Position numbers and translations under genes: made by a program. Positions 41,628 to 52,168 of a stretch of 64,000 nucleotides of DNA are shown piece after piece. Position 1 is the first letter of the stretch. Each line of letters starts with the position of its first letter. The DNA comes from Candidatus Hydrogenedentota bacterium (GTDB lineage Bacteria; Hydrogenedentota; Hydrogenedentia; Hydrogenedentales; SLHB01): assembly GCA_029552745.1 (NCBI GenBank), contig JAKPDK010000167.1, positions 261,973-325,972 on the forward strand. The letters are read 5' to 3'. The notes under the pieces were generated by a model. The model ran no database searches, had not been told where the DNA came from, and worked only from the letters and a program-made list of their open reading frames with translations.

Positions 41628-41672
41628 TAGCCGCTGAGGTTAAATTAACTATTGCCGGGGTCAGACAAGAGA

Positions 41673-42695
41673 ATGCCTAACCGGGTGACACTGGATAGAA
41701 TCGCTAAACTGGCTGGGGTCTCCAAAGCCGCGGTTTCTTACGTCCTGAGCGGTCGGGAGCGCGAGTACCGCATTGCGGAGGAGACCGCAAAGCGCATTCG
41801 GGAGATCGCTGCAGAAATGGAATATATCCCGAATCGTGCCGCGGCGCTGCTCCGAAAAGGGCGGCATCATCTGATTGCGCTGATTGCTCCCCATGTGGCG
41901 GATTTCTATGCGGGGCTCGTATCGGCTATTGAGGCGGAGGCAGAGCAGCGCGATTACCAGATGCTTTTGGGGAGTACGTTCGACAATATTGAGCGCGAAC
42001 GGACTTATCTTACGGCTCTGATTGCTCGTCGGGTGGAGGGCGTTATTATATTGCCGGTGGATATCCATCAACCTCACCTAGACATTTTAACGAAGCGGCG
42101 TATCCCCACGGTGTTTTTCCGACGTCGCGCCGATTCGGAAGCGCGGCATATGTTTATGACCTTTGACGACTTTGAGGTGGGACGTCTTGCGGTAAAGCAT
42201 CTGGTTTCTCGGGGGTGTCGCAGGCTGTTATTCGTTTCAGCGCCTGCTTTTATGGATTACGATTATCTGCGCATCATCCATCAAGCCCGTTTTTCCGGTT
42301 ATGCGGAGGCGCTTCAGGGGTGTGGGTATCCTTCTTTCGAAAAAGCATTTTTGCTCAACTTCGAAAATCATGCCGTGTGCGGGGAATTGATTCAGATTAT
42401 CTCCAGCAAGGAAATTGACGGTTTGGTATGTCTTTCTGACGAGGTTGCGGCTCAAACGTTACAGGTGCTGCGCCGTGCGAATATTGCCGTACCGGGACAA
42501 GTCCGCGTCGTGGGATGCGACGATTCGCTCATTGCCCGTTATACCAGTCCACCGCTGACGTCTCTGAGACTGCCCAAGGGGGAACTGGGTAAGGCGATGG
42601 TGGACTCGTTGTTTCAGATGATTGACGAGGAAAAGCAGGAAAGCGGCGAGAAACTTTTTTCTCCATGTTTGGTGGAACGGGAGTCGACCGCGTAG
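41673..42695 (+). CDS. LacI-family transcriptional regulator
   Basis: A 340-residue repressor. The helix-turn-helix VTLDRIAKLAGVSKAAVSYVLSG is at the N-terminus, followed by the hinge helix IPNRAAALLRKG and a periplasmic-binding-like effector domain (LIALIAPHVADFYAGLVSAIEAEAEQRDYQMLLG, VVGCDDSLIARYTSPPLTSLRLP). The ATG at 41673 is preferred; a TTG 21 bases upstream is in frame. The effector is most likely a sugar or derivative. It controls, by operator placement, itself and the downstream pseudopilin and transport genes. The gene is transcribed in the same direction as its likely targets. Confidence 0.93.
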   Translation: MPNRVTLDRIAKLAGVSKAAVSYVLSGREREYRIAEETAKRIREIAAEMEYIPNRAAALLRKGRHHLIALIAPHVADFYAGLVSAIEAEAEQRDYQMLLGSTFDNIERERTYLTALIARRVEGVIILPVDIHQPHLDILTKRRIPTVFFRRRADSEARHMFMTFDDFEVGRLAVKHLVSRGCRRLLFVSAPAFMDYDYLRIIHQARFSGYAEALQGCGYPSFEKAFLLNFENHAVCGELIQIISSKEIDGLVCLSDEVAAQTLQVLRRANIAVPGQVRVVGCDDSLIARYTSPPLTSLRLPKGELGKAMVDSLFQMIDEEKQESGEKLFSPCLVERESTA

Positions 42696-43000: not shown

Positions 43001-44086
43001 ATGAAAAGGCACGTAAAAGGCTTCACGCTGATCGAGTTGCTGGTCGTGATTGCCATTATTGCGATTCTCGCAGCCATTCTTTTGCCGGCATTGGCGCGGG
43101 CACGCGAGGCAGCACGCCGGGCAAGCTGTCAAAACAACCTCAAGCAGTGGGGGTTGATCTTCAAGATGTTTTCTTCGGAAAGTCGCGGCGGGAAATTTCC
43201 GGGCGGTGGTGGTCCCAAACCCAACGCTTGGGGTTGGTGGCGCGGAGTGGACAGCACGGACCTGTATCCCGAATATTGGACGGATCCCAACTTAATGATC
43301 TGCCCGTCTGATCCCCGCGCGGACTGGGCTGGGGCGGATTCCGTCGGTTTTGGTACGCCTTTCCCTGGTTTCCAGCAAGACATCGCGGCACAAGTGGCGA
43401 ACATTAAAGACGATGTGAACCCGACTGTTGCAAGGCTTGTGAGACATGCGATTCTGTCTTTCCCAATTTCGTATGTGTACAATCCGTATGCGACGCGCAC
43501 GAGCACTCAAACCATGGCGGTGTTTCACGCGTGCAGCATAAATCCCTGGCCTGGATATGCGTGGGCAGTGGGAAGCGGCATCAAAGAGGAAACTTGGGAC
43601 CCGGCGGCGATCGCGGCGGTGGGTGGACCCTCAAACTGGATCTGCATCGTCGACTTTAATGGCAACGCCGAGGATGACATCAATGACCTCTTTGCCATAA
43701 TGCCATGGTGGAGTACTGCCTTAGACGACGACGGCGTCAGCATCGTACCGAAAAAGTACAATCGTTTGAAGGAGGGGATTGAGCGGTTCTTCATCACGGA
43801 CATTAATAATCCGGGTGGCAGCGCCACCGCGCAAAGCACGTTGCCGATCATGTGGGATGCCTATGGTCGAAATGACAACTGGGATGCGGCGGCTCAAGGA
43901 CGTGGCGCGATCCTGTTCTTCAACCATCTTCCCGGCGGTGTAAACGTGTTGTACATGGACGGGCATGTCGAATTTAAGCGTTACGATCGGCATGGTGGGG
44001 TTCCGTTTGATGCGCCCGACAAACCGGGCTGGATTCCTGGTAAAGACTTCAGCATGTGGTCCCACGTCTGCGGCGGCATGGGTTGA
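43001..44086 (+). CDS. Type II/IV pseudopilin with H-X9-DG-like motif
   Basis: A 361-residue protein with a classical prepilin start: [35 protein letters not shown], with cleavage after the Gly before Phe and Glu at mature position 5. The C-terminal segment [17 protein letters not shown] resembles the H-X9-DG domain that marks large families of such proteins in planctomycetes and relatives, here with one extra residue between His and Asp. The Shine-Dalgarno AGGAGG stands before the ATG. These proteins are exported by type II secretion-like machinery and are abundant and diverse, perhaps surface or substrate-binding. It precedes the transport genes and lies behind the second LacI-type operator. 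Confidence 0.9.
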
Positions 44087-44135: not shown

Positions 44136-44217
44136 CTCTTTATCATGACTTACTTCTTGTTGGGCAAACCTCTCGGCCTTCGTGTTAAGATTCATCAGGT
44201 CTTCTTGTAGGTGCGAT

Positions 44218-47200
44218 GTGTTTCAGCGCAGTTTTGGGTACAGCGTAGGGACGGTGATTGTCCTCATGGGTTGTTTGGCGGCGATTGTTGCCGTAACACC
44301 GAGGGAAAAGCCGTATACCGAACTCTCTCCGGCTTCGCGCTTGATTCATCAGGGTCTGGACTACCTGGACGTTGATGTCAATACCCCGTTTGATTGTGAC
44401 TCCGCGGTGGAACGATTCGCCTCCGCCTGCGCTGCCGAAGCTGCCACGAGGGAGGAGGTCGTTACTGCCGATTTTCTGCGGTGCTGGGCGGAGTGGGTGC
44501 GCCCGACAGTCGATTTTGAGGAAGTACGTCGAGGGCTCAGAAGCCATTTGGAGAAATATCCAGATTCACCCTATCGGCTTGAATCTCACTATATCCTTGG
44601 GTTGGTTGAACTTCATGACCTATTTCATGGTGATGCGACCCGTGCCGTAGAACATCTCACCGAGGTCTATAAAACGGGGCGGGACAGTTTTCTTGTTCCG
44701 CTGGCTGCCACAGCACTGCCGGGAATATATCTTCACCTCTTACGAGACCCTGAACAAGCCGCCCACTGGTATGGTGTCGCATTTGATGCTACCGGGGACA
44801 CCCACACCACCGATGAACGGCTCGGATTTTTATATGTTCAGGCGAAACTCTATCAGCAGTTGGGTAAAACCGACGCGGCAAAGGAGATATATCGGCGGAT
44901 ACTTGACTTGACCCGGAACGGAACAAATACCTGGACGCCGCGTGTGTTGGATCGTTTGGACGAACTGGGAGAGCACCTGGGTGATCAGTATTTCAAGGGG
45001 TTAGACACGACGCCGCTGCCTGTAACGGATTACCATTTTGTTTCGGAAAAGCCGGTAGAACTCTCCGTGAGTTTTTGGATTCTTGAAAAACCGGGGATGC
45101 GTCGGGGCATTGAGACAATTGCTCGCAACTACGAGGCGCGTAGTTCCGGCGTAAAGATACGTCTAATCGACCTGCCGTACCGGGGCTATCACGACTGGCT
45201 TCAGAGTCAAATTCTAGGTCAGGAAATTCCGGACATCGTGATGATCGATAACGGCACGGCGATTCGTTACGGCGCGCAACAAGGAAAACTGGTCGATATG
45301 ACGCCGTTCTTGGGAGAGACCAATCCCTATACGGGCATGCGTTGGGCGGACATGTATTACCCGCAGTTTATTTTGAACGCGCGCGATCCTGTTTACCGCA
45401 GAAACTGGATCATTTCCTGGGCGAGCGAGAATACGGCGTGTTTCTATAATAAGGACGCTTTTCGAAAGGCAGGTATTATAAAACGTCATGAGGACGGAAC
45501 CCCCGTTTTGGGCGAGGATGGCAAGCCGGAGGTTGCCGAGCCGAAGACGTGGCGGGAGCTCATGGCGGCGTTTGAAGCGCTTCGCAGGGTGGGAATCTAT
45601 GGGGAAGTTGTAAACTTTCACCCCGATCCGGCGCCTATCATATGGCAATTGCCTTACTACCGAAAGCAACTCTACTTTGATCTCATTCCGACTTTCGATA
45701 CTTATACTCCTGATGATTACCCCGATGCGTTCGAGATCGCAGAAGCCATGCTGCGAGGCACAATGGACCTCCGTAACCCATCGCTGGCTGAACCGTGGCG
45801 GCTTCTTTACGAGAAGAGCGAATACTGGATGCCGGGGGCGTCCGCTATGGACATCCAGCAGGGCTTTGAGGCGTTTGCGTCAGGGCGCGCTGCCACCCTT
45901 TTTTGGGTCAGCACAGACATGTCGAGCTTCGAGGAGATGTGCAATTTCGATCTAGGGGTTTTTCCTTTTCCGCTTCTAGTGGATTCCCCTTACTATGACG
46001 GCGAGTATTCCGAAGAGTTCAGTTTGTCCGCTTTTGAATGCAGTGTGCCTTTGGCGACGCGCGCGCGCGGGAATCTTGACGCCGCGGTGGACTTTTTGAG
46101 GTATTTCACTTCGCCAGAGGCGCAGGAGATTCTGAGCCGTGAGGCGGTGTGCCTGTCTCCTATTCGCGGCGTGCGGGCGCCTGAAAAACTGGAGCCGTTT
46201 TTACGGCGTATGAACCGTCGCGGGACGTTTCTCTTCTATTTTGATCCCTATGCCTTAAGCATTTGGCACGAACCGTATTGGTCGGACGCGCGCGACAAAT
46301 TGTGGAGCGAGCTCACGAATTTGCTGGGCAGTATTCCCAACTATGATTATTATCGTCGACTGACAGGTGGCACGGAGACAGAATACCAAGAATGGCGTGA
46401 GCGACGGTTTGACCAGTTTCTCGAAGGGCTTCAAAAGTATTTCGGCTTTGCCTATAACCGTCTTGTTCGAGAATACTCGCTCCATACCAGGCGTGAATTG
46501 AAACGGACTCAAAATCGCTGGATCCATCTATTCCGGCAACGACATGCAGCGCTGCCGGGCGACGGTTCCGTTGATTCGGCAACGCTGGAAAAACAAATCG
46601 GTGAATGTTGGCGATCGGTGACGGACAACTGGGGCGTTATCGCGCGATGCGAACGTATGCTCCCGTCGGGAGAGCAGCGGGCGCGTTACACCAGCCAGAC
46701 GATCAGTTATCAGGAACAAAAGCGGATCGCGTATCTCTTGAAGATTGCGCTTATTCTCCTAACTGGCCTTGGGGCGCTTCTTTTTATGTGGTCGGGTGCG
46801 TTGTTGCGCGTGGTGCGAGATTGGGGTTACATCCGTGTATTACTACCCACTGCCGTGTTGTTGGCGTTATTTTCTTACACCCCTGCCTTATCTGCGATTT
46901 ACCATTCGTTTTTCCGTTGGGATGGCGGCGCGGTTTCTGAGTTTGTGGGTCTGGAGAATTTTCGTGCCCTGTTCCATGATGAAGTGCTTTTCCAGGCGGT
47001 CAAGGTGCTCGGCGTTTTCCTGGTTGCGAACCTATTGAAGTTTGTTCCGACCCTCGTGGTCGCGGTAGTGCTATTTCATCTTGCAAGCGCACGGCTTCAG
47101 TACGCGTTTCGGGTGATTTATGTGCTTCCCATGGCGATTCCCGGCATGGTGGGCATTTTGATCTGGAAGTATTTTTATCGGATGGATGGGGGGGTGTTGA

Positions 47201-47679
47201 ATTGGCTTTTGCTAAACCTGGGGGTAATTCGCGCGCCGATAAACTGGCTAGGCACGGAGGAGACGGTGGTGCCGGCACTCATTTTCTTGGGATTTCCCTG
47301 GGTATCAACCATCGGCGTGCTTATTCTGCTTGCGGGACTTCAGAGCATAGATCCGTCCGTGTTTGAAGCGGCTTTACTGGATGGATGCGGCGTGTTCCGA
47401 AGATTTCGGACGATAGAACTTCCTTTGATCATGGGTCAGGTAAAACTGAACGTTGTTTTGGTGACGTTGGGCACGATACAGGATTTTGGCTTACCGCTGG
47501 TGTTGACGCGGGGTGGCCCCAACAACGCTTCTATGTTACCGGGGCTTTGGATGTATTTGAGCGCCTTCAGTCATGGGAAAATGGGATACGCCGCAGCGCT
47601 GGGTGTGGTGATGTTTTTGGTCATGCTTTCCCTTACCTACATAAATATGCGAATGATTAAGACAGATCAGGCAAATTGA
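44218..47679 (+). CDS. TPR plus solute-binding plus MalF-type permease fusion
   Basis: A 1153-residue fusion of modules that are normally separate. A signal anchor is at about 9-29; TPR-like helices run to about 260 (LYQQLGKTDAAKEIYRRILDL); a family 1 solute-binding domain spans about 278-660 (VSFWILEKPGMRRGIETIARNYEARSSGVKI, NTACFYNKDAFRKAGI, FLRYFTSPEAQEIL); a helical linker follows; a transmembrane helix at about 842-862 returns the chain to the cytoplasm; and a MalF-like permease ends it, with the EAA loop FEAALLDGCGVFRRFRTIELPLI near 1050. The topology is consistent. I choose GTG at 44218 after AGGTG; GTG at 44182 is an alternative. The ATPase must be encoded elsewhere. Confidence 0.88.
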   Translation: MFQRSFGYSVGTVIVLMGCLAAIVAVTPREKPYTELSPASRLIHQGLDYLDVDVNTPFDCDSAVERFASACAAEAATREEVVTADFLRCWAEWVRPTVDFEEVRRGLRSHLEKYPDSPYRLESHYILGLVELHDLFHGDATRAVEHLTEVYKTGRDSFLVPLAATALPGIYLHLLRDPEQAAHWYGVAFDATGDTHTTDERLGFLYVQAKLYQQLGKTDAAKEIYRRILDLTRNGTNTWTPRVLDRLDELGEHLGDQYFKGLDTTPLPVTDYHFVSEKPVELSVSFWILEKPGMRRGIETIARNYEARSSGVKIRLIDLPYRGYHDWLQSQILGQEIPDIVMIDNGTAIRYGAQQGKLVDMTPFLGETNPYTGMRWADMYYPQFILNARDPVYRRNWIISWASENTACFYNKDAFRKAGIIKRHEDGTPVLGEDGKPEVAEPKTWRELMAAFEALRRVGIYGEVVNFHPDPAPIIWQLPYYRKQLYFDLIPTFDTYTPDDYPDAFEIAEAMLRGTMDLRNPSLAEPWRLLYEKSEYWMPGASAMDIQQGFEAFASGRAATLFWVSTDMSSFEEMCNFDLGVFPFPLLVDSPYYDGEYSEEFSLSAFECSVPLATRARGNLDAAVDFLRYFTSPEAQEILSREAVCLSPIRGVRAPEKLEPFLRRMNRRGTFLFYFDPYALSIWHEPYWSDARDKLWSELTNLLGSIPNYDYYRRLTGGTETEYQEWRERRFDQFLEGLQKYFGFAYNRLVREYSLHTRRELKRTQNRWIHLFRQRHAALPGDGSVDSATLEKQIGECWRSVTDNWGVIARCERMLPSGEQRARYTSQTISYQEQKRIAYLLKIALILLTGLGALLFMWSGALLRVVRDWGYIRVLLPTAVLLALFSYTPALSAIYHSFFRWDGGAVSEFVGLENFRALFHDEVLFQAVKVLGVFLVANLLKFVPTLVVAVVLFHLASARLQYAFRVIYVLPMAIPGMVGILIWKYFYRMDGGVLNWLLLNLGVIRAPINWLGTEETVVPALIFLGFPWVSTIGVLILLAGLQSIDPSVFEAALLDGCGVFRRFRTIELPLIMGQVKLNVVLVTLGTIQDFGLPLVLTRGGPNNASMLPGLWMYLSAFSHGKMGYAAALGVVMFLVMLSLTYINMRMIKTDQAN

Positions 47680-47691
47680 GCTGAAAGCGAT

Positions 47692-48585
47692 ATGAGAGCT
47701 GTAACGCATGCAAAACCATTGGAACTGCTCAAGTTGGGCGTACTGGGTGCGGTAGCGATATTTGCGCTGTTGCCGGTGTATTTCATGGTCGTTATCAGTT
47801 TCAAAGATATGGTGCAATTTACGAATCATCCCTACCTTCCAACATGGCCGCTGCACTTTTCCAACTACGTTCGCGCGTGGGGGTACGTGGGACCGTACAT
47901 CGGTCGGACCTTGTTCGTTGCCGCAATTGCCACGGTGACTACTCTCTTCCTGGGTTCGTTGTGCGCCTTCTATCTTGCCCAGTTCCGATTTGCGGGAAAA
48001 GAAGTGTTCTTCTATTACGTCATTATTCTGATGATGGTGCCCGGAATTCTGAATCTTGTTCCTTTATACGTGTTGGTCACCCAGTTGGACAACGTGTTGC
48101 GCGGCTTAAGTCGCATGCTGAACGAACAGTTCCCGGGCGTGCAGGTTGACTTGCGGATGTTGAATACCTTATGGGCGCTAATTTTGCCCGCAATTGCCGG
48201 CGGCCAAATCATGATGATTTTTATTCTGCGCCAGTTTTTCGAAGCGCAACCCGCTGCGTTGGTGGAAGCGGCCCGGATAGACGGTGCGTCTCATTTCCAG
48301 ATCTATCGCCATGTAGCGTTACCTTTGGCAAAGCCGATCATTGCGACGCTCACGGTCATCAATGTGGTGGCGATTTGGAACGACTTTGTCTGGCCGCTGG
48401 TTGTGCTACAACGAGACCATTACACCGTGTCGGTCGGATTGCGGTTTTTGGAGGGGCAAAACTATGTGGAATACGGACCGTTGATGGCGGGGTATACGCT
48501 AGCCGCTGTGCCTCTTGTCATTATGTTTTTGTTTTCGATGAAGTTGTTTATCGAAGGAATCGCTTCGGGCGCCATCAAGATGTAG
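47692..48585 (+). CDS. MalG-type ABC sugar permease
   Basis: A 297-residue integral membrane permease of the CUT1 family with about six helices. The EAA loop VEAARIDGASHFQIYRHVALPLAKP, which docks the ATPase, is intact. A longer insert than usual (VLRGLSRMLNEQFPGVQVDLRML, about residues 125-155) lies in one periplasmic loop. It would pair with the permease part of the preceding fusion protein to form the channel. It starts 12 bases after the fusion gene, so the two are in one operon. The substrate is probably an oligosaccharide or sugar derivative. Confidence 0.92.
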   Translation: MRAVTHAKPLELLKLGVLGAVAIFALLPVYFMVVISFKDMVQFTNHPYLPTWPLHFSNYVRAWGYVGPYIGRTLFVAAIATVTTLFLGSLCAFYLAQFRFAGKEVFFYYVIILMMVPGILNLVPLYVLVTQLDNVLRGLSRMLNEQFPGVQVDLRMLNTLWALILPAIAGGQIMMIFILRQFFEAQPAALVEAARIDGASHFQIYRHVALPLAKPIIATLTVINVVAIWNDFVWPLVVLQRDHYTVSVGLRFLEGQNYVEYGPLMAGYTLAAVPLVIMFLFSMKLFIEGIASGAIKM

Positions 48586-48621: not shown

Positions 48622-51192
48622 ATGGCTCATCCATTATTCGCGGCGATCGTCTTGTGCCTTGCGTGCTGCGTGGTGCCGTGTTTTTTGGCGGTGGCGGCGC
48701 CCGCATCTACCGAAAAGGCATCGGGGCGGTCGCTGTTATCTACGGAGCTGGCGCCGTACTACCAAACATGGTTTTCCCAACCCGGCGCGATGCTGAGCGT
48801 ATTGGGTAATGCGTCGGACCTTGGGGCTTGTGCCGAACGGGTTAAGGCAAACGCCTCGTATATTATTCTCATGTTGCCGATTCCGCTGGTGCCCGATCCG
48901 AGCTCTCCTTGTGGAGTGGTGGTGAAGCCCGATTTCATTTTGTTAGAACAGTTCTTTGCATTTGCGGAACCGCGCGGTTTTCAAGTGGAAATTGCGTTAG
49001 GGGAACACAACAACCCATTTTTTGCGTATTATCCTCGCGAGTTTATTCAAAAAAACATGGGCTCTTTTATGCAAGACATGGAGGGCAAGTTGATCATCCT
49101 GAACGGCAGGGATGTCTCTGACCCCAACGCACGGCTTGTGCCGGCGATTTGCGATTCCGTTATTTCTCGATTGGCGTCAGAATATATACGGATTCAAGTA
49201 AAAGCGATTCGACATCTCACGTCTGTCCGCAATTGGGTAATCGGCTCCGAGACGATGTACCCCGACCTGTTTGGCATTCTTCCAATGGGTGATTTTCGCC
49301 CCGCGTTTGTCAGGCAGTTTAACTTGTGGCTGAAGGAGCAGGGCATTCACGTTTCACATGGTGATTTCAAGCCGATTCTTGCAGAAAAGATGAACCCACT
49401 ACAAGCTGCCTGGTTCCGTTTTCGCGAGCAAGCCATGGCAGACCGCGCCGCATGGTATTACATCAGTTTCTTAACATCCGACGAAGGAAAACGTCCCATC
49501 TTGTTTCCCACGCATGGCCATCCGTTTGCCAAAAGGATGCGTCGAGGTTTGGGTTTGTCGCCAGGTTTGATGGCCGGGGCCTCCGACGGTTTTGAAATGG
49601 GACAGATTACGATCAATACGGACGAGGACAACCTCAATTTGTTATACATTACCGCGCTTTCTAGCTATGGCGTACCGGTGATTGTACCTCGATTGGCGAA
49701 CAAGACCTTGGATCCGAAAGCGCGCGGTGGTGGACGCACCTTCACGCCCGTCATGATTCGGCGAGCCGTTTACGAGTGCTTGGGGATGGGTGTCAATCAC
49801 ATCGGCCCAATCGATTGGCAACGGTCCCTTCCCGACGGCGAGTGGTTTATCAAAGGCACTCCAGCCGAAACGGAACTGGCGAAAGTTTTTGGCGAGATCC
49901 GCAACGCGGCGCCTTATCTTAAAGGTATGGCACGGCTCCAACCGCGAGTAGGCCTGTTTGTTGCCGATGACACGTGGCGCAACAATTGGGATCCGCGTTG
50001 GACAGGCTTCTTTCAAGATGCTCGCAAACATCATTGGAATGTCGCACTCGTGGGAGACGCCCTCGTAGATGCTCGGCTCGCGGAAAAGATTCCGATATTG
50101 GTGAGTCTAGATAATGCGCTCGTTGATGAAGGGACGATGCGTCGGTTCGCATCGTATCTTGACGCGGGCGGTATGGTCGTTTCTTGGCGATCTTTCGGCG
50201 AGCAAAACGCCTTCGGCGAACCGATGCCGGAGCAAACGCATTTGTCTGTGGTACGCCACAAGCAATTCTTTGTTGTACCTTCTGAACGTGAAGGGGAACC
50301 ACGCCGATTAGTTAACCGATTTTCGACCGACCAGGGGGCGTGGGAAATGCCGCACACTTTCCGTGCGGCGCCTTTTGACGCCATAGCATCTGTGATCAGG
50401 GAAAAAGTGGGTGGCGATGTACCGTGCCCGATAAAGGTGCAAGGAGTTTCCTCAAACGGGGATGTCACGGTGTTGCCCCTGACGGACGGGATTTCTCTGG
50501 TAGCCGTGATGGTAAACAACTCCGATCAGGCAGCAAATGTGCAGTTGTCTCCTGCTGTTGTGCCTCTGACATCGGCTGAATGGTCGGCGTATGATCTTCT
50601 CACAGGCGCACGTTTGCCGATGCCGAGTTCTGGAACCGCAGAACGGACACTGCCGCCTCACGCCACGGCGCTGGTGTGGTTTGTGCCGGAGGTCTCTCCG
50701 GAGAAGATCTCCGAAACTATTGAACGCGCCCAAAAAGCTTTTCGAGTCTGGGAGGATTGCGGCGCGCAAACGGATTTTCTAAAAATCCACAAAGACACGC
50801 TTCAGGAGCCTCCTGCAGAGGGACTCTTACGGTTGAAGGCGTATTGTCTAGCTCAGCGCGTTTTATCTTCGTTGGTTCTTGCTCCATCCCTTGCACAGAC
50901 AGCCGAAGGTGGCATCGTCGCAACCGCCCGCGTGTTTGATGCCGACGGAAAATCGGTTGTCGACGCGAGCGTGCGCTTGCGGGCGGTGCCCGACACCTTT
51001 GCCTGGCGGGACATGCAAAGAGACGGCGACGCATATCAACTGGAGATACCGCCTGACGGTTTTGGTGTTTTTTACGATCCCATACAGGGTAAGTATACTT
51101 ACAGAGCGGAAGCGCGACGGTTTGTGTTTTCAGCAACACGCGGCACATCGAGCGGTGGCGCCGGTGTAACCTTTGGAACAACAACTCGGTAA
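48622..51192 (+). CDS. Exported glycosidase-like protein (GH42-like fold)
   Basis: An 856-residue protein with a signal peptide (AAIVLCLACCVVPCFLAVAAPAS). The middle contains a TIM-barrel-like region (SVRNWVIGSETMYPDLFG with a Glu after a strand, GADGFEMGQITINTDEDN-type end strand at AGASDGFEMGQ) followed by a flavodoxin-like region (PRVGLFVADDTWRNNW, IPILVSLDNALVDEGTMRRFASYLDAGGMVV) as in the trimerisation domain of GH42 beta-galactosidases. A beta domain closes the chain. The candidate acid/base is the Glu in GSETM. Its place between a sugar permease and a nucleoside hydrolase supports a carbohydrate role. The specific family is uncertain. Confidence 0.6.
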   Translation: MAHPLFAAIVLCLACCVVPCFLAVAAPASTEKASGRSLLSTELAPYYQTWFSQPGAMLSVLGNASDLGACAERVKANASYIILMLPIPLVPDPSSPCGVVVKPDFILLEQFFAFAEPRGFQVEIALGEHNNPFFAYYPREFIQKNMGSFMQDMEGKLIILNGRDVSDPNARLVPAICDSVISRLASEYIRIQVKAIRHLTSVRNWVIGSETMYPDLFGILPMGDFRPAFVRQFNLWLKEQGIHVSHGDFKPILAEKMNPLQAAWFRFREQAMADRAAWYYISFLTSDEGKRPILFPTHGHPFAKRMRRGLGLSPGLMAGASDGFEMGQITINTDEDNLNLLYITALSSYGVPVIVPRLANKTLDPKARGGGRTFTPVMIRRAVYECLGMGVNHIGPIDWQRSLPDGEWFIKGTPAETELAKVFGEIRNAAPYLKGMARLQPRVGLFVADDTWRNNWDPRWTGFFQDARKHHWNVALVGDALVDARLAEKIPILVSLDNALVDEGTMRRFASYLDAGGMVVSWRSFGEQNAFGEPMPEQTHLSVVRHKQFFVVPSEREGEPRRLVNRFSTDQGAWEMPHTFRAAPFDAIASVIREKVGGDVPCPIKVQGVSSNGDVTVLPLTDGISLVAVMVNNSDQAANVQLSPAVVPLTSAEWSAYDLLTGARLPMPSSGTAERTLPPHATALVWFVPEVSPEKISETIERAQKAFRVWEDCGAQTDFLKIHKDTLQEPPAEGLLRLKAYCLAQRVLSSLVLAPSLAQTAEGGIVATARVFDADGKSVVDASVRLRAVPDTFAWRDMQRDGDAYQLEIPPDGFGVFYDPIQGKYTYRAEARRFVFSATRGTSSGGAGVTFGTTTR

Positions 51193-51244: not shown

Positions 51245-52168
51245 GTGCAATATCCAAGTCTTTCGGAGTGTAAACGGCTGGAACGGTTGCAAGGACCGAG
51301 ACGTAAAGTACGCATGATATTGGACACCGACACATACAACGAGATTGACGACCAATTTGCCGTGGTGTACGCCCTTCTTTCACCAGAATCGATGAGTGTA
51401 GAAGCCATTTATGCCGCGCCGTTTTGGAACAAGAAATCCGAAGGTCCAGCCGATGGGATGTATAAGAGTTACGAAGAAATCTTGCGGTTGCTTCAGCGGT
51501 TAAATGTGTCGCCGGAAGGATTTGTATTTCAAGGCTCGCCGGGATTTCTCGGCAACGGTGTCACCGCGTATGATACGGACGCCGCGCGAGACCTCATCCG
51601 CCGAGCCCTGAAGTCTCCCGAAGACGATCCTCTATATGTGGTTGCTATCGGCGCCATCACCAATGTGGCGTCGGCTATTCTATTGGAACCGGAGATCATA
51701 AAACATATTGTGGTTGTTTGGTTGGGCGGCCAGCCCTGGCATTGGCCCGACACCTGTGAATTCAACCTGGGACAAGACATCTGTGCAGCAAGGGTGGTGT
51801 TTGATAGCGGCGTGCCTCTGGTTCAGATCCCCTGTTCGGGAGTGGCTTCTCATTTGCTCACCACCGTGCCCGAACTGGAACGACACGTAAAAGGCAAAGG
51901 GGCAATCGGAGATTATCTTTTCCAAATATTTACCGACTATCATGCCGACCATTATGCTTGGGCGAAAGAAATCTGGGATATTTCCGCTGTGGCATGGCTC
52001 ATAAATAGCGACTGGCTGCCGTCGGAATTGGTGCACAGTCCTATCGTAACGGATCAAAAGACCTATAGCCTAGACCATCGCCGCCATTTCATTCGCATGG
52101 TTCGTATGTTATACCGTAACCCAATTTTCGCCGACTTGTTCCGCAAGCTCGAAAAATTCGCTGGGTGA
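51245..52168 (+). CDS. Nucleoside hydrolase (IUNH family)
   Basis: A 307-residue cytoplasmic enzyme that cleaves the N-glycosidic bond of nucleosides or related N-glycosides. The calcium-binding motif is DTDTYNEIDD (Asp27, Asp29, Asp35, Asp36), close to the family DxDxxxDD pattern. The conserved TNVASAILLEPEI and the later WDISAVAWLI segments follow. The start is GTG at 51245, eight bases after GGGAGGA. It is 52 bases from the exported glycosidase gene and probably in the same operon. Because it follows sugar import genes, its substrate may be a ribonucleoside or other imported glycoside. Confidence 0.88.
   Translation: MQYPSLSECKRLERLQGPRRKVRMILDTDTYNEIDDQFAVVYALLSPESMSVEAIYAAPFWNKKSEGPADGMYKSYEEILRLLQRLNVSPEGFVFQGSPGFLGNGVTAYDTDAARDLIRRALKSPEDDPLYVVAIGAITNVASAILLEPEIIKHIVVVWLGGQPWHWPDTCEFNLGQDICAARVVFDSGVPLVQIPCSGVASHLLTTVPELERHVKGKGAIGDYLFQIFTDYHADHYAWAKEIWDISAVAWLINSDWLPSELVHSPIVTDQKTYSLDHRRHFIRMVRMLYRNPIFADLFRKLEKFAG

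Follow-up and report, generated by a model that had tools for sequence, protein, structure and literature searches.

In the PAAT/OTCN importers GlnP and OpuA, solute-binding proteins (SBPs) are fused to the translocator, and since these importers are homodimeric, each transporter has two or more receptors. A natural fusion of the CUT1 type, MalE-MalF, is said to come from Bdellovibrio, and to our knowledge no TPR arm has been reported in it. By its description in PMC7756565, which cites the original characterisation (Licht et al., 2019, Res Microbiol 170:1-12), this fusion is transport-competent. Cooperativity has been noted in SBP-fused ABC importers (PMC8276074). TPR domains enter solute uptake in the TPAT systems, where the TPR lipoprotein TatT binds TatP, an SBP of TRAP transporters; the partnership is established, and the ligand is thought to be hydrophobic (PMC5812351). 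Here we describe a protein from the phylum Hydrogenedentota in which a TPR domain, an SBP and a MalF-type permease form one polypeptide. Set beside the MalE-MalF importer as described in PMC7756565, it is likewise of the CUT1 type, with the SBP fused to MalF and, as predicted, one receptor per transporter. It shares with GlnP and OpuA a receptor covalently tethered to the translocator, but those proteins belong to other importer families and have no TPR domain. With TPAT the likeness is one of analogy, an extracytoplasmic TPR domain that may work with an SBP, whereas TatT and TatP are separate polypeptides and the permease here is of the ABC type, not a TRAP-type membrane protein.

The gene lies in a stretch of 64,000 nucleotides (hereafter the window) from a Candidatus Hydrogenedentota bacterium (contig JAKPDK010000167.1). 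An uninterrupted frame on the forward strand, 44218-47679, encodes 1153 residues with no internal stop. It begins with a GTG at 44218, with a short AGG six bases 5′ of it, and an in-frame GTG at 44182 is a second possible start. From the N- to the C-terminus the protein consists of a hydrophobic anchor, an 11-helix TPR domain, an SBP, a helical linker, a return helix and a six-helix MalF-type permease. Hydropathy gives eight membrane segments: the anchor (residues 9-27, 44242-44298), the return helix (residues 837-855, 46726-46782) and the six permease helices. The anchor may be an uncleaved anchor or a signal peptide; the return helix keeps the protein tethered whether or not the N-terminal segment is cleaved. 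An N-terminus on the inside places the TPR domain, SBP and linker on the extracytoplasmic side of the membrane and leaves the EAA loop and C-terminus in the cytoplasm, which is the topology that a working importer needs.

The SBP (residues 301-642, 45118-46143) is of family 1, matching in Pfam both SBP_bac_8 (residues 301-642, 9e-16) and SBP_bac_1 (residues 301-637, 3e-15), the latter to the end of the profile. It is followed by the C-terminal SBP helices and a helical extracytoplasmic linker (residues 643-836, 46144-46725), and a Pfam scan of residues 672-862 gave no matches. The permease domain (residues 871-1153, 46828-47676) matches BPD_transp_1 at residues 957-1142 (1e-8), and its nearest NCBIfam models are GlcT, UgpA and MalF, i.e. 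CUT1, at scores under the equivalog cut-offs. It contains an EAA loop for ATPase coupling, EAALLDGCGVFRRFRTIELPLIMG (47365-47436), with the motif EAALLDGCGVFRRFRTIELP. Directly 3′ of the fusion gene is a second, MalG-type permease (47692-48585, forward strand, 297 residues; Pfam, NCBIfam, hydropathy) with its own EAA motif and ordinary spacing between its first and second membrane helices. The preliminary description had proposed a single polypeptide comprising an anchor, TPR-like helices, a complete family 1 SBP, a return helix and a MalF-type permease with EAA loop, with an internally consistent topology and a MalG-type partner. Pfam, NCBIfam, hydropathy and AlphaFold agree with that architecture, the eight segments with the N-terminus inside agree with that topology, and the partner is the adjoining gene.

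CUT1 importers often share an ATPase. The only gene for an OB_MalK-domain ATPase in the source genome (G000:C106:143073; L074:796-1908) is unlinked to the window and stands alone, with no adjoining permease gene in the stretch read. Its best match, above cut-off, is the UgpC subfamily, and this sole MalK/UgpC-type ATPase is likely shared by the CUT1 importers of the genome.

A search of related genomes for the same architecture, as had been suggested earlier, found it end to end in another genus of the same family, Candidatus Hydrogenedentes UBA6118 (L030), at 64% identity; a match in G005 looks the same as L030. Gaps in the alignment are confined to the anchor and all are in frame. Identity is 76% in the SBP and permease, 48% in the TPR domain and 50% in the linker. 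In all four parts the differences are concentrated at third codon positions, which indicates that even the TPR domain and linker are selected as protein, and by this comparison the TPR domain, SBP, linker and permease are all under purifying selection. If an error of sequencing or assembly had merged two or three genes, the same full-length frame would hardly recur in a second genus with no gaps but in-frame ones in the anchor, and we regard such a join as ruled out. Gene order is also shared (regulator, pseudopilin, fusion, MalG, large secreted protein), except that in L030 an ADP-ribosylglycohydrolase gene lies between the regulator and the pseudopilin.

The preliminary description took the receptor of such importers to be normally a free lipoprotein. 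This has to be corrected, as tethering is not exceptional: MalE-MalF is already published, in the description given in PMC7756565, and SBP-MalF fusions without a TPR domain are found in at least 30 of the 68 genomes of the phylum, a tally over the listed matches of a search with L032 that counts single matches covering both SBP and permease. The source genome alone has four SBP-MalF fusions besides the window protein; of its 14 SBP_bac_1 matches, five are in fused frames (827, 848, 852, 925 and 1176 residues). The fusions of the phylum (about 810-935 residues, e.g. L032, L033, L045, L050) resemble the window protein in having an N-terminal hydrophobic segment, SBP, linker, return helix and MalF-type permease. 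They differ in the missing TPR domain, in a permease identity of only about 30% and in their separate origin. One apparent further fusion in the source genome, of 902 residues (C102), was discarded, as stops part the SBP gene from the permease gene.

In a permease tree of 58 sequences, fused proteins are placed at several separate points, and forcing them all into one clade is rejected (p-AU 0.0002). The window protein and its L030 ortholog form one clade, far from the main fused clade of the L032 type, so that a common origin with that clade is not upheld. Outside this clade, the closest permeases are for the most part either free (L057, L071) or MalF-MalG fusions (L037, L039), and an SBP gene stands separately in most of their operons. 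The MalF-MalG pair is placed as sister with support 98/81, but long branches meet there and the SBP tree does not recover the grouping, and therefore only separateness is claimed. In the SBP tree, the neighbours of the window SBP are free SBPs, including many lipoproteins, whose genes lie just upstream of free permeases. The trees thus show several independent SBP-MalF fusions within the phylum, and we infer that the window lineage joined SBP to permease independently of the common ones. The simplest story would be that adjacent SBP and MalF genes fused in this lineage, which also gained a TPR domain. A supposed TPR-SBP intermediate of 1044 residues in G005 (L056:5867-9001) was rejected, as an upstream frame extended too far accounts for its first ~500 residues, and what the gene really encodes is a free lipoprotein SBP.

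The trees also bear on whether the protein still transports. Its long branch (stem 0.85 in the permease tree and 2.57 in the SBP tree) and an SBP score below that of most SBPs of the genome could suggest a sensor or scaffold that has lost transport. Such a loss is very improbable given the intact EAA loop, the EAA motif of the MalG partner and the conservation of the permease between genera.

Other importer proteins of the phylum are enlarged or fused in different ways. Where a common SBP-MalF fusion is paired with a MalG-type permease, the latter can have an extra ectodomain of 320-385 residues between the first and second membrane helix (L032:2534-4204, L042:1997-3670, L043:3411-5237, L044:5657-7453, L045:78-1751, L046:1623-3401, L048:4668-6359, L049:7700-9373, L050:2534-4228, L040:8196-10052). 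It has no Pfam match above cut-off among those scanned and looks like an undescribed domain that accompanies fused receptors; many of the fusions have such a partner, unlike the window protein. Two further MalG-type permeases, L035:1226-4135 (in the source genome) and L034:7773-9839, have inserts of about 600 and 400 residues with weak similarity to beta-galactosidases (GH42). A 1522-residue protein of G017 (L038:5372-9940) unites an SBP, a MalF-type permease and a MalG-type permease in one chain, and the MalF-MalG fusions L037:1977-4109 and L039:464-2728 (710 and 754 residues) each have a separate SBP gene upstream. Zinc-ribbon-like cysteine motifs lie inside the SBP domain of two SBP-MalF fusions, L034:5155-7917 (residues 255-317) and L038:5372-9940 (residues 256-319).

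The N-terminal TPR domain (residues about 38-259, 44329-44994) is the sole unusual part of the window protein, a rare addition common to two genera. Its assignment is weak by sequence, with a single TPR_8 match in Pfam (residues 205-233, 5e-4) under the curated cut-off, and weak matches to TPR and CpoB/YbgF profiles; CpoB/YbgF and BamD, both periplasmic TPR proteins, are among the nearest. The predicted structure makes it firm. An AlphaFold model of residues 28-285, with only two sequences as input, has a pLDDT of 82.9 and 11 main helices, arranged as tandem antiparallel pairs stacked into a superhelix. The best matches of this model in the PDB by Foldseek are consensus or designed TPR superhelices, BamD, LGN and MamA (E 3e-5 to 1e-3), in accord with the TPR-like helices first proposed; TatT is absent from the 50 best. 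The full-length model (pLDDT 39, again only two sequences) is too poor for use. A convincing homolog of the TPR domain is found in only one other genome, i.e. in two of the 68 genomes of the phylum with the source included, and the search of these genomes gave otherwise only a marginal third match (G015, 7e-4). A search of open-access papers found nothing relevant on fusions of a TPR domain with the SBP or permease of an ABC importer.

The main rival to a docking or handover role is that the TPR domain has no partner and serves only as a spacer or for stability. It would then form a second stalk and, together with the linker, set how high the SBP stands above the channel and how it is oriented. 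Among the extracytoplasmic parts, conservation is lowest in the TPR domain and linker, and other SBP-MalF fusions (e.g. L036, which ends at a contig end, L032, L033 and L034) have no TPR domain, which fits such a role. Yet those fusions manage without one, and an ordered domain of 220 residues exceeds what a spacer needs; we consider this reading unlikely, though to be taken seriously. The established TatT-TatP partnership makes a role in partner docking or ligand handover plausible by analogy. In its most specific form, the arm would be an in-line accessory from which the protein's own tethered receptor takes over either ligand or a partner that carries it (for example the pseudopilin or an enzyme that is secreted), as a single-polypeptide ABC counterpart of TPAT; this we hold quite tentatively, as a long shot.

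The neighbouring genes offer candidates for such a partner. Directly upstream is a pseudopilin gene (43001-44086, forward strand) with N_methyl and DUF1559 domains (Pfam), a family with matches in all the Hydrogenedentota genomes examined. By recruiting this pseudopilin, the TPR domain would couple the importer to a filament on the surface or to the machine that assembles it. An ortholog lies directly upstream of the fusion in both TPR-bearing genomes, and such a gene is found at none of the other CUT1 loci examined; the two syntenic pseudopilins are 74% identical, and the next relative at most 56%. The two loci nevertheless represent one inherited association, and with about 44 matches in the source genome a pseudopilin neighbour is not rare, so that the adjacency is only suggestive. 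The pseudopilin is thus a weak candidate, and the coupling is improbable. Further upstream is a LacI-type regulator (41652-42695, forward strand; Pfam, NCBIfam), 51% identical to its counterpart in L030. Downstream on the same strand, a predicted secreted protein of 856 residues (48622-51192) is conserved in L030 at 38% identity; comparison with the PDB and Pfam gave no informative match and hence no clue to the substrate. A nucleoside-hydrolase-like gene (51245-52168) lies further downstream and is only a hint to the ligand.

Our preferred reading, which we think probable, is of a type I (CUT1) importer in which the window protein provides the MalF half, with a receptor built in by an independent fusion and an added TPR arm, and in which MalK is shared. 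In the most likely version, the fusion would pair with the adjoining MalG and with two copies of the single MalK/UgpC-type ATPase, supplied in trans, which would leave each channel with one tethered receptor. The SBP would close on a sugar-like ligand and swing via the helical linker onto its own channel, so that delivery would be intramolecular and a free receptor pool unneeded. The TPR arm may meanwhile dock or hold another extracytoplasmic protein, or hand ligand to the SBP.

Receptors tethered to their channels have been described before and are frequent in the phylum; only the TPR arm is new, and in all else the protein is a modest extension of known designs. The CUT1 receptor-channel fusion has nonetheless arisen several times within one phylum, and one such fusion has gained what may be a protein-docking arm. 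These proteins are natural material for testing how tethering affects type I ABC import, and whether importers recruit extracytoplasmic partners.
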